Source: Deltaproteobacteria bacterium
GTDB taxonomy: Bacteria; Desulfobacterota; GWC2-55-46; JADFVP01
Length of the DNA: 62,380 nt
Reading direction: 5' to 3'
Assembly (NCBI GenBank): GCA_029262515.1
Contig: JAJCZH010000016.1
Location: 1 to 62,380 of the forward strand
Positions 17,345 through 21,716 of this stretch are shown here, piece by piece (position 1 is the stretch's first letter; the number at the start of each line of letters is the position of its first letter). The notes beneath the pieces are model-generated. The model had not been told where the DNA came from. It made no database searches and saw only the letters and a list, made by a program, of their open reading frames with translations. The position numbers and the translations under genes are program-made.

Positions 17345-17548
17345 ATGCTATATAAAATCTTAAATTTACTTGCTGGTTTATTAATGGTAATAACCGGAGT
17401 CAAAGTAACGCTACATCAAGAATTGATTAGATCACATGCTTATTATTTTGATTTTGGACAATATCATGCTGTGATTGGGGTAATAATTATTGTTGTAGGT
17501 TTGTATATGCTTTACATAGCGTTAAAAGCATGGACTAAAGCCGTGTAG
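17345..17548 (+). CDS. Small two-helix membrane protein, possible immunity partner of the RHS tip
   Basis: A 67-residue protein with two membrane segments (about 6-22 and 43-62) and a short polar loop. ATG 17345 has GAGGG six bases upstream. I recognise no family. It starts 55 bases after the end of the RHS tail, the usual position of an immunity gene behind a polymorphic toxin tip. Base composition is AT-rich like the tip. The role is inferred from position only. Confidence 0.55.
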   Translation: MLYKILNLLAGLLMVITGVKVTLHQELIRSHAYYFDFGQYHAVIGVIIIVVGLYMLYIALKAWTKAV

Positions 17549-17671
17549 GGTGGGCACAACCCACCATAAAGTTGCTTAATAAGGTATTAATAAAAAGATG
17601 TTGGGTTTCGCAGTAGCTCTACCCAACCTACGTACTTACCTAGCCGGGTAGGGTGGGCACTGCCCACCACG
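17546..17671. repeat. Cluster of three palindromic REP-like sequences
   Basis: GTAGGGTGGGCACAACCCACC (17546-17566) and GTAGGGTGGGCACTGCCCACC (17648-17668) are nearly identical palindromes with GTGGG/CCCAC type arms. Between them, about 17600-17632, GTTGGGTTTCGC pairs with CTACCCAAC followed by CTACG. The GTTGGGT/ACCCAAC unit recurs at 54206-54404. All three lie between short accessory genes. Confidence 0.75.
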
Positions 17672-17710
17672 TAAAATATATTCTGTTTCAAACACGTTAA
17701 GGTTTTATAA

Positions 17711-18427
17711 ATGTTAAAAGGTCACTCTAAAAATATATTTAATACTTCAACCGGCCTGCTCGGAGTTCTCTTTCTGCTGTTAGCGCTGCTACTGCCTTTA
17801 CAGGCGCAGGCGGAAGAGTGTACGGTAAGCGTACTCAACCGTACTGCCACGGTTCAGCCCGACGGCTCGTGGCTACTGCCCAACATTCCTTCTAACATGG
17901 GGCTGGTGCGCGCGCGCATGACCTGCGTGGTAAACGGAAAGACTATATCGGGCCAGAGTGATTACTTTACCGTATCTGCAAACAATACTTTAGATATCGG
18001 CGACATATACTTCGACGACTATGATGAAGTTCCAAACGCCGTATCGATAACAACCCCGACTACCAGCCTTACAGACATAGGCATGTCTACCCAGCTAGCG
18101 GTGACGGCTACGTACCCGTCGGGCGCCAATTCTGACGTAACGGCGGGCTTTAGCGGTACCACCTATACTTCGACCAACCCTGCTATCGCATCGGTATCTC
18201 CTGACGGCATTGTTACCTCCGGTACCGAGACCGGAAGGGTAATAATAACCGCCTCTAATGAGATGGTCTTAAGTTCGCTCTTCTTTACGATTACGCAGGG
18301 CAGCAACCCGGACTCCGACGGAGACGGCCTACCGGACGACTGGGAGATAGCAAACGGCCTAAACCCCAACGACCCGATAGATGCACTTAAAGACCCGGAC
18401 AGCCTAAAGCCTTTCCAAAAGTGTTGA
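17711..18427 (+). CDS. Exported Ig-like (BIG_2) protein, truncated
   Basis: A 238-residue secreted fragment with an N-terminal signal segment ending near QAQA. It then has a cysteine-containing domain (CTVSVLNRTATVQPDGSW), a bacterial Ig-like region (VSITTPTTSLTDIGMSTQLA through GRVIITASN) and a calcium-binding thrombospondin-3-type stretch DSDGDGLPDDWEIANGLNPN. The reading ends abruptly as DPDSLKPFQKC where another DGDG repeat would be expected, so the 3' part of a much larger surface gene is missing. N-termini of this type can head large RHS or adhesin proteins, which fits the detached RHS end just upstream. Confidence 0.7.
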   Translation: MLKGHSKNIFNTSTGLLGVLFLLLALLLPLQAQAEECTVSVLNRTATVQPDGSWLLPNIPSNMGLVRARMTCVVNGKTISGQSDYFTVSANNTLDIGDIYFDDYDEVPNAVSITTPTTSLTDIGMSTQLAVTATYPSGANSDVTAGFSGTTYTSTNPAIASVSPDGIVTSGTETGRVIITASNEMVLSSLFFTITQGSNPDSDGDGLPDDWEIANGLNPNDPIDALKDPDSLKPFQKC

Positions 18428-18711
18428 TACTTTCTACTGGAAATCGACATTTTTATGTCTTCTTCTGAACTATTTAGTAGCAGGTGTACTACGCATCTTA
18501 CACCCATCCTACAGCAAGCACTTCCTACTGATCATTCCCTTGCCAACCCTTCACAACAAATTAATCTCCTCGTTTACCTATAAGCCAAAAGCTGAACAGG
18601 CTACTTTAGCAACACATGTTATAGCCACACCTAACCATCTGTTTTTCGTGCCTTTTTTCCGTAAGGTTAATCGGAGATGTAGGAGATTCGCTCAGAAACA
18701 ATCAAAAAACC
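18428..18711. other. Intergenic region with no gene seen
   Basis: About 280 bases after the truncated Ig-like gene. Short frames are present but none has a ribosome binding site or recognisable product. It may be eroded sequence from the deleted part of that gene. Confidence 0.4.
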
Positions 18712-18740
18712 TTGAAAAAAATCAATAAACCTGCTACTAT
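18712..18740 (+). promoter_or_regulatory. Sigma-70 promoter upstream of the PD40 lipoprotein leader
   Basis: TTGAAA (18712-18717), 17-base spacer, TACTAT (18735-18740). Transcription would start near 18747 and give a leader of about 165 bases before the GTG start at 18912. Confidence 0.6.
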
Positions 18741-18845
18741 TATCAACGATTACTGCTGTTGCAGGCATGTTGCAGATATTATGATGCTACTCTTGTTCGC
18801 TCTGCGATATTACATTCTGTTACAACTATTTTACAGGTGATGGGG

Positions 18846-18890
18846 CCTGACATTGGGAGATTTTTGCCGTATGTCAGGTTTTTTTTATTT
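18846..18890 (+). terminator. Intrinsic terminator in the leader of the PD40 lipoprotein gene
   Basis: CCTGACAT (18846-18853) pairs with ATGTCAGG (18871-18878), followed at once by eight T and then ATTTTTT. It lies only about 20 bases before the GTG start codon, so it either ends a small RNA or acts as an attenuator. Confidence 0.75.
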
Positions 18891-18911
18891 TTTCTTGGGG
18901 GGGGGATAACT

Positions 18912-21158
18912 GTGCTCAAGCTTTCGCTTAGATTTGCTCTTCTACTACTGCTCGTGACCGGCCTGGTTAGCTGCGGCTCCGGCGGGGGCGGGGGTGGTGG
19001 CGGTACCGGAGGAAACAGCGGCTCTTCTTTACAGTACACCGGCAGTACATACCCGGCAGCCCTAACTGACATAAACTCGGTAGAGGTCTCAAAAGAGACA
19101 TACATGGGCGGCGGTACCGGTACGGCAATAGGCGGACGGAGCCTCAACTCGACAACAGGGTCGAACAAGGTACGACGCCCCAACACCTTTGTCCTCGCCT
19201 CGGTACTCGAAAGCGCTATAACCAAGGCCGACCTAACCTCAAGCACCGATCTGTCAAAGACTGCACTCAACGGAAACCTGATACCGGACGCCACCTGCGC
19301 GGGCGGATCCGGTACCGGTTCGCTCAGCCTCGATTACAACGACACCACCGGCTCCTTCACCGGTACCTTCACCTTCAATAGCTTCTGCTCCGAGGGCGTA
19401 AACCTGACCGGCACAGTAGCCACATCGGGACTGATAAATCCCTTTACGCTCGACATTATAGACTTCACCATGTTCTTCGACTCTCTGGCAGCGGTAGCGG
19501 CCGACTACTCAGATACCGCCAGCGGCACCATTACATACGCCATCTCCGGTTCATCAGAGACGGTAACACTAGACCTGCTGCTAAGAGACGACGCCACATC
19601 CAAGGTCTATAAGATGGAGAACTTCCATGTAGGTCTGCTTACGGTGTCGAATTATGTAGATATGACGATCCAGAGCGGTCGGTTCTTCCACCCTGACCAC
19701 GGTTATGTAGACGTAACGACCGTTACGCCGCTCAGGTATTATAACGACGAAGAGTGGCCGTCCGGCGGCGTGCTGATCTTTACGGGTTTATCTGGAGCCA
19801 GGGTGCGCCTAACGGTCTACCTCTCGGAATCCTATAGCGTCGAGACCGACTCTGACGGTAATGGGTCATACGAGTATGACTCAGGCATGCAGAGTTGGCA
19901 AGATACCGGTACTTCGGACGGTGACACGACAAGCCAACTGCTCCCCATAATACGTGCAAGCGTGGCTTCAGACGGTAATATCGGCAATAACCATAGCTTC
20001 CGTTCATCAATGAGCGGAGACGGACGGTACGTGGCTTTCGACTCATCATCATCAAACCTTGTAGCTAATGACACCAACAACGCACATGATGTATTTGTCC
20101 ATGACAGGCAGACCGAAACCACCACACGGATCAGCATCGCCTCGGACGGTACTCAAGGTAATAACAATTCAAGTTCTCCATCAATAAGCGCCGACGGGCG
20201 GTACGTGACCTTTGTGTCTTATTCAACCAACCTTGTAGCAAATGACACCAACGGAGAGGGTGACATCTTTGTCCACGACAGGCAGACCGGCAATATCACA
20301 AAAGTAAATATCACCTCGGACGGCACACAAGGTAATAACCATTCAAGTGCTCCATCAATAAGCGCCGACGGACGGTACGTGGCCTTTCAATCAGATGCTT
20401 CAAACCTTGTAGCAAATGATACCAATTACGCTTCTGATGTTTTTGTCCATGACAGGCAGACTGCTACCACCACAATAGTAAGTGTCGCATCAAACGGTAC
20501 GCAAGGCAATAGCTACAACGAGTTTCCATCAATAAGCGAAGACGGACGGCACGTAGCATTCACGTCTTACTCAAACAATCTGGTTACCAACGACAACAAT
20601 GTCAGACGAGACGTTTTTGTCCATGACAGGCAGACAGGGGAGACCACAATGGTCAGTGTCGCCTCGGACGGTACCCATGGCAACACCTTCAGCAAAGATC
20701 CATCCATAAGTGCTGACGGACGGTACGTGGCATTCTGGTCATGGTCAAATACCCTTGTAGACAATGATACCAACGACGTATACGATATTTTTGTCAGAGA
20801 CAGGCAGACCGAAACAACAACAAGAGTAAGTGTCGCATCCGGAGGCACTCAAGCTAGCGCCAATGGCCGAAAGCCATCAATAAGCCCCGACGGACGGTAC
20901 GTAGCCTTTTCTTCCAGCTCACCAGACCTTGTCACCAACGACACCAACAACGTGGAAGACATCTTCATCCATGACAGGCAGACCGGCACCACCACAAGGG
21001 TAAGCCATGATTCAAATGGCGCACAAGGTGAATTAACAAGCTATTACCCATCAATAAGTGCAGACGGACAGTACGTAGCCTTTACTTCTGTTGCATCCAT
21101 CTTGGTTACCGGTGATACTAATGACCGAGCTGATATATATGTTGCACCACATGAGTAA
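18912..21158 (+). CDS. Seven-blade PD40/TolB-like beta-propeller lipoprotein
   Basis: A 748-residue lipoprotein. The GTG at 18912 is chosen because it follows a G-run Shine-Dalgarno sequence and starts a perfect lipoprotein signal (MLKLSLRFALLLLLVTGLVS, then C21). A poly-Gly spacer and an unrecognised domain (about 40-330) follow. The C-terminal half holds seven repeats of about 55 residues, each with SxxGRYVAF, NLVxNDTN and D(I/V)FVHDRQT blocks, the PD40/WD40-like propeller unit. The frame is open upstream to 18759 but that part contains the terminator hairpin. Function is unknown; TolB-like propellers bind proteins or polysaccharides. The DNA of the repeats is itself repetitive (about 19960-21150). 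Confidence 0.85.
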   Translation: MLKLSLRFALLLLLVTGLVSCGSGGGGGGGGTGGNSGSSLQYTGSTYPAALTDINSVEVSKETYMGGGTGTAIGGRSLNSTTGSNKVRRPNTFVLASVLESAITKADLTSSTDLSKTALNGNLIPDATCAGGSGTGSLSLDYNDTTGSFTGTFTFNSFCSEGVNLTGTVATSGLINPFTLDIIDFTMFFDSLAAVAADYSDTASGTITYAISGSSETVTLDLLLRDDATSKVYKMENFHVGLLTVSNYVDMTIQSGRFFHPDHGYVDVTTVTPLRYYNDEEWPSGGVLIFTGLSGARVRLTVYLSESYSVETDSDGNGSYEYDSGMQSWQDTGTSDGDTTSQLLPIIRASVASDGNIGNNHSFRSSMSGDGRYVAFDSSSSNLVANDTNNAHDVFVHDRQTETTTRISIASDGTQGNNNSSSPSISADGRYVTFVSYSTNLVANDTNGEGDIFVHDRQTGNITKVNITSDGTQGNNHSSAPSISADGRYVAFQSDASNLVANDTNYASDVFVHDRQTATTTIVSVASNGTQGNSYNEFPSISEDGRHVAFTSYSNNLVTNDNNVRRDVFVHDRQTGETTMVSVASDGTHGNTFSKDPSISADGRYVAFWSWSNTLVDNDTNDVYDIFVRDRQTETTTRVSVASGGTQASANGRKPSISPDGRYVAFSSSSPDLVTNDTNNVEDIFIHDRQTGTTTRVSHDSNGAQGELTSYYPSISADGQYVAFTSVASILVTGDTNDRADIYVAPHE

Positions 21159-21199: not shown

Positions 21200-21325
21200 A
21201 CGACCCCAGCTACATACCGGTGATCAGCGCGGCTGCAATATGTGGACTTCACTTCCAGCTCATCTAACATTGTAGCCGGTGACACCAATAACTTGCTTGA
21301 TGTATTCATTACGCCAAATCAGTAA
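21200..21325 (+). pseudogene. Decayed extra propeller blade after the PD40 gene
   Basis: About 40 bases beyond the stop, the sequence encodes SYIPVISA and, one frame over, LQYVDFTSSSSNIVAGDTNN then LLDVFITPNQ and TAA (21323-21325). This matches the last blade of the gene (SYYPSISADGQYVAF ... VTGDTNDRADIYVAP). It needs a frameshift near 21232, so it is a relic of a duplicated or exchanged C-terminus. Confidence 0.7.
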
Positions 21326-21474
21326 CGGTTCAACTCCAAAATAACCTCTACGTTTCACCTCAAGACAATACTTATCACAATACCCCGCTACGCTCCCTCA
21401 ACATAAGCACAATTTGGGCACAATCCACCCACAAACAGATTACGGAAACCCCGCAACCCATTCACTCCAGCGCA

Positions 21475-21531: not shown

Positions 21532-21538
21532 CGTAATA

Positions 21539-21615
21539 TGGTGCGCCTGGAGGGATTCGAACCCCCGACCTACGGATTCGTAGTCCGTCGCTCTATCCAG
21601 CTGAGCCACAGGCGC
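21539..21615 (-). tRNA. tRNA-Arg (ACG)
   Basis: A 77-nt cloverleaf on the minus strand with encoded CCA; acceptor GCGCCTG/CAGGCGC, T-loop TTCGAAT, anticodon loop CTACGAA giving ACG, which would be edited to ICG by TadA (gene at 9644-10123). Confidence 0.95.
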
Positions 21616-21626
21616 AAGAAAAAAAG

Positions 21627-21716
<90 letters not shown>

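Follow-up and report, generated by a model that had tools for sequence, protein, structure and literature searches.

How can a gene be expressed when a stop signal for transcription stands between its apparent promoter and its start codon? This question is raised by a lipoprotein gene on a deltaproteobacterial contig of 62,380 nucleotides (the window, i.e., the whole stretch of DNA that was analysed). The features concerned are as follows:

18712-18740, plus strand: promoter-like site TTGAAA-17-TACTAT, with TGC before TACTAT; shuffle counts are given below
18747-18845, plus strand: leader with an inferred start, a hairpin (18767-18776/18801-18810) and a 19-codon open reading frame (18781-18840)
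18753-18765, plus strand: putative antiterminator strand, possibly pairing with 18845-18860
18846-18893, plus strand: intrinsic terminator, an 8-bp stem plus 3 pairs, then T8-A-T6; matched by 0 of 300 shuffles
18897-18905, plus strand: G9 tract, probable ribosome-binding site by anti-Shine-Dalgarno pairing
18912-21158, plus strand: lipoprotein gene of 748 amino acids, with GTG as the start codon and C-terminal PD40 repeats

Terminator, gene start and promoter-like site

The intrinsic terminator at 18846-18893 is more than a chance occurrence and is real as a sequence feature. Its arms, CCTGACAT (18846-18853) and ATGTCAGG (18871-18878), form a perfect 8-bp stem, which is lengthened in the fold, with three extra pairs (18854-18856/18867-18869) and G-T pairs at its base. 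The stem is followed by T8 (18879-18886), an A and T6 (18888-18893), which bears out the 8-bp stem and T8 described in an earlier, sequence-only reading. The 55-nt terminator folds at -19.3 kcal/mol (z -4.4), a value equalled by 1 of 200 shuffles. When 18428-18911 was shuffled and the hairpin was required to carry at least seven T in eight, its energy of -16.5 was reached by none of the 300 shuffles and -14 by two. Among 82 terminator-like sites (-14 kcal/mol or below) from the window and 20 further stretches of its genome, the hairpin ranks only 55th, while its T-run is among the best, eight consecutive T being present in only five of them. A consensus-based terminator scanner missed the site because the loop is nominally 17 bases and the scanner has a loop limit of 8. 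On the minus strand, no T-run comes after the hairpin, and the terminator is, therefore, one-directional.

From the end of the T-run to the GTG at 18912 there are 18 bases, close to the 20 or so estimated before. They contain the G9 tract, which pairs with a generic anti-Shine-Dalgarno sequence at -10.5 kcal/mol and looks like a ribosome site. Tracts of G9 or longer occur at nine places in the genome (14 overlapping matches), about as many as expected from base composition by rough arithmetic. Out of five other tracts inspected, one immediately precedes an ATG, in the position of a ribosome site (contig C5), and another, judged by eye, is part of the reading frame for a DnaJ-like protein (contig C11). 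Phase variation at the G9 tract was also considered and set aside, as no special sign of a switch was seen.

The GTG opens VLKLSLRFALLLLLVTGLVSC, a lipoprotein signal peptide with what we take to be a lipobox, and PD40 repeats are found in the protein by Pfam. The assignment of the 18912-21158 product as a lipoprotein is thus a firm prediction, in agreement with the PD40 lipoprotein start proposed earlier. The N-terminal 350 residues make up a small lipoprotein family of their own elsewhere, with open frames mostly of 325-380 amino acids; here, this domain is continued by the PD40 repeats. A further PD40-like fragment follows the gene (21233-21343), and contig C15 has one that is broken.

The promoter at 18712-18740 is less certain than the terminator. 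The two boxes claimed for it, TTGAAA (18712-18717) and TACTAT (18735-18740), are indeed present with a spacer of 17 bases and match the consensus at 9 of 12 positions, but this score is at chance level. Four sites of the 9/12 type were observed in 17500-20500 against a shuffle mean of 3.2, and 43.5% of 1000 shuffles of 18428-18845 held at least one. TGC directly 5' of TACTAT makes an extended -10, and a site that is equally good including this TG is rarer (3.6% of 1000 shuffles of the same region). Judging from the position of the promoter, the RNA would start at about 18747, and the leader (18747-18845) would have the length of about 100 bases given to it before.

Search for a sensor in the leader

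A control of the attenuator or riboswitch kind had been suggested for this leader, although no known riboswitch was recognised in it. With Rfam 15, there was likewise no match up to E 10 in 18420-18960, and nothing but tRNAs reached the gathering score in the whole window. Known riboswitches were rejected for the leader on these results. As a positive control, the same kind of search was run on seven stretches of the genome (136,000 bases) and detected a Moco riboswitch and a tRNA. This riboswitch, elsewhere in the same genome, is of the molybdenum/tungsten cofactor family (RF01055, 67.7 bits; L068 16084-16218, minus strand). The leader up to the terminator loop (18747-18862) does not fold better than its shuffles (z -0.83). 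The RNA of the whole promoter-leader-terminator unit does so mildly (z -2.15), mostly due to the terminator.

Riboswitches that act by terminating transcription carry, in the 5' UTR, a terminator and a competing helix. The present leader is similar in having a 5'-UTR terminator and in that a competing helix, which it had been advised to look for, can be drawn: 18753-18765 pairs with 18845-18860 at -15.1 kcal/mol (22 of 500 shuffles were as good), and before the 3' arm has been made, no predicted fold is better than its pairing with the 5' arm of the terminator. However, upstream pairing of equal strength was found in 29 of the 82 genomic terminators, and in 6 of the 34 with a similarly low G+C. 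As evidence, the pairing was therefore discarded, being mildly above shuffles but not above this genomic background. Unlike the terminating riboswitches, the leader also has no conserved aptamer and no Rfam match.

Attenuators of another kind rely on a leader peptide, translated from an open reading frame with its own ribosome site. In likeness to these, the 19-codon frame at 18781-18840 lies between promoter and terminator. It differs in that no Shine-Dalgarno-like sequence is present in the 16 bases before its ATG (18781), and neither a run of codons tied to the gene nor conservation was seen. Its stop codon shares bases with an ATG (18840) from which the reading frame runs across the terminator into that of the lipoprotein, a coincidence which may be due to chance. 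In all, there is no positive evidence for a switch and no basis for the name of a riboswitch or any other RNA family.

Relatives and the same genome

The leader is present as a single copy in its own genome. In a DNA search of 59 genomes, the matches outside this genome were at chance level only (best E 0.0046), and plasmid and phage records gave nothing of note. A covariance search in relatives had been advised. The model, built from the single leader sequence entered twice, gave only chance-level matches in the order's 47 other genomes, leaving no second copy above chance among the 48. Matches in G003, G006 and G028 (E 0.24-0.48) were judged to be chance, the one in G003 lying among tandem repeats with a poor alignment; a gammaproteobacterial MAG (L041) gave no match. 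The three nearest relatives (two congeners and one other member of the family) have neither the leader nor the lipoprotein gene. Lack of conservation was to have counted against a regulatory leader, and such a lack is indeed seen; nevertheless, it is a weak test because the gene itself is missing from these three.

Homologues of the N-terminal domain of the lipoprotein occur in 17 of 394 other genomes sampled from the phylum and in two more of the order, mostly at about 30-35% identity. The leaders were read in 17 of the 19 other genomes that matched at E 1e-8 or better; G177 and G204 were left out, as the match begins only at residue 127 or beyond in both. G039, matched at E 8.5e-4, looks like another protein and was not counted; a small hairpin (-11.7) with T5 stands 42 bases upstream of its match. 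Only one of the 17 (G014) has a terminator at 100 nt or less from the start; the other 16 have none at this distance. The unit in G014 (L034, minus strand) lies in the region about 75-280 bases upstream of the lipoprotein start: TTGACA-17-TAATAT is followed by a leader in which GGCA is repeated about seven times and by a strong terminator, some 75 nt from the ATG. The lipoprotein homologue there is apparently split into two frames, and the unit is a candidate for repeat-driven on/off switching. By eye, G016 and G035 have a TTGACA box some 80 nt upstream of the ATG with no terminator after it, and in G044, the nearest terminator comes after two tRNA-like genes. One case in 17 is too few for a claim of conservation.

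Base rates within the same genome were taken from the window and the 20 stretches (440,219 of 2,497,218 bases) and depend on a crude picker of open reading frames and starts. By this count, 14 of 389 open reading frames (440 kb) have a hairpin with a T-run starting at most 70 nt before the start, six of these being at -15 or below. Besides the present terminator, one of the six is found on contig C11 (L077 1063-1210) and makes a second case of such a layout in this genome. There, TTGACA-17-TATACT with an extended -10 and a leader of about 100 nt come before the gene for an SLT lytic transglycosylase, with the hairpin and T-run about 70 nt from its start; Rfam matched only a tRNA in this stretch. 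The layout of promoter, leader, terminator and gene is thus uncommon but not unique in the genome.

Possible routes of expression

The terminator lies between the promoter-like site and the start codon, and no promoter of the 9/12 type follows it. As only 18 bases separate the T-run from the GTG, and these are filled by the G-rich ribosome site, a separate promoter does not fit there. Read-through is, therefore, the simplest route of expression, and expression of the gene probably depends entirely on RNA polymerase passing the terminator. The earlier interpretation is supported in part: that read-through is needed, or else that the leader is a separate small RNA, holds as the simplest reading, with the reservation that an 8/12 site overlaps the terminator, whereas a specific attenuator or riboswitch mechanism is not supported.

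To the following explanation we give about an even chance: the 5'-UTR terminator limits the expression of an accessory lipoprotein, which uses its own promoter and partial read-through, and releases a short RNA. The gene would be transcribed from 18712-18740. The RNA, starting at about 18747, would pass through the leader of about 100 nt, and most of the transcription would stop at 18846-18893, freeing an RNA of about 140 nt. Some of the polymerases would go on to transcribe the G-rich ribosome site and the start codon. Expression would thereby be kept low, and it might be increased through promoter strength or by a protein or RNA favouring read-through. The point at which the RNA starts, its termination in vivo, the read-through and the regulation of this are what we infer, and the expression of the lipoprotein here is likewise a prediction from sequence. 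Against this leader model stand the weak promoter score, the unconserved leader, the 16 of 17 homologues without a terminator within 100 nt and the absence of an outstanding sensor or antiterminator.

Within the portion of the literature consulted, the closest analogue is the Rli51-mpl leader of Listeria, and the lipoprotein leader would work like it. According to PMC11394854, the 121-nt Rli51 leader RNA has a terminator at its end, and the spacer of about 30 nt between this and the gene holds the ribosome site; most of the RNA stops at the terminator, while a fraction reads through into mpl. This geometry is the same as here: a short leader, a terminator, a ribosome site and the gene. Termination, read-through and action in trans were measured for Rli51, whereas the behaviour of the lipoprotein leader is predicted; no relation in sequence is expected. 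In a literature search on lipoprotein and terminator leaders, none with PD40 was among the matches listed.

It is also conceivable, though rather unlikely, that 18747-18890 encodes an independent small RNA of about 140 nt with a function elsewhere, and that the lipoprotein gene just happens to lie behind it with little or no expression. A promoter-like site and a strong terminator of its own would suit such a gene, and in G014 an apparently split lipoprotein homologue likewise lies behind a unit of this kind. On the other hand, it would be odd for an unrelated gene to have its ribosome site and GTG directly after the T-run, the RNA has no homologue in the genomes, plasmids and phages searched, and the fold of the unit gains little over shuffles apart from its terminator. 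We consider it quite improbable that the promoter of the lipoprotein gene overlaps the terminator, as TTGCCG (18864)-16-TATTTT (18886-18891), with the RNA beginning at the G-tract and the terminator serving only the upstream RNA. The 8/12 site is located exactly there and its RNA would begin at or just before the ribosome site, but a match of 8/12 is weak, given that even 9/12 sites are common by chance.

The same commonness of 9/12 sites would allow the promoter at 18712 to be a chance match and the terminator to end the transcript of the upstream gene (17711-18427). This is very unlikely: the gene ends 417 bases before the terminator stem, which would make for a 3' UTR of more than 400 nt, a weaker hairpin with T5 (-11.5 to -12.2 kcal/mol) already stands at its own end, and the lipoprotein gene would be left without a promoter. 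Equally doubtful is a switch that depends on a signal (a riboswitch, a peptide leader or an attenuator bound by a protein) with 18753-18765 as the antiterminator. The predicted fold before the 3' arm is made speaks for it, whereas the empty Rfam search, the 29 of 82 genomic terminators, the ordinary leader fold, the lack of a relative with the leader for covariation and the leader frame without a ribosome site speak against it. A long shot is an undescribed, lineage-specific leader in which 18753-18765 pairs with the terminator 5' arm around a two-hairpin junction, a signal switches the lipoprotein on and the 140-nt RNA acts in trans, as is reported of Rli51.

Taken as a terminator with partial read-through, the leader is a plausible case, specific to its lineage, of a type of regulation that is already known, and nothing in it hints at a new riboswitch. 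Provided that it functions in vivo, the terminator would add another accessory surface protein restrained by a stop signal directly before its gene and would leave the general understanding unchanged. A signal-dependent switch would be of more interest, and nothing here indicates one.

Genomic neighbourhood

Right of the lipoprotein gene, two tRNA genes are present at 21536-21716. From the tRNA at about 21536 rightward, G002 and G003 have the same sequence in the same order. The stretch to the left of the tRNA genes in the window is suspected to be an island, and no more than suspected because the contigs of G002 and G003 both end close to that tRNA. In G003, a phage-type integrase gene lies directly behind the same tRNA.

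About 150-240 bases 5' of the promoter, a dispersed repeat is found at 18475-18571. The first of its bases (18475-18488) form an inverted repeat, matching at 13 of 14 positions, with 18726-18739, the arm that contains the -10; this may be due to chance. The core of the dispersed repeat, GTAGGTGTACTACGCATCTTACACCC, occurs with up to three mismatches at four sites of the genome (C16, C29, C15 and C30). All four lie at the 3' end of a gene or close to it, the copy on C29 at the end of a phage-integrase gene. The repeat may represent an attachment site or a mobile 3'-end element.
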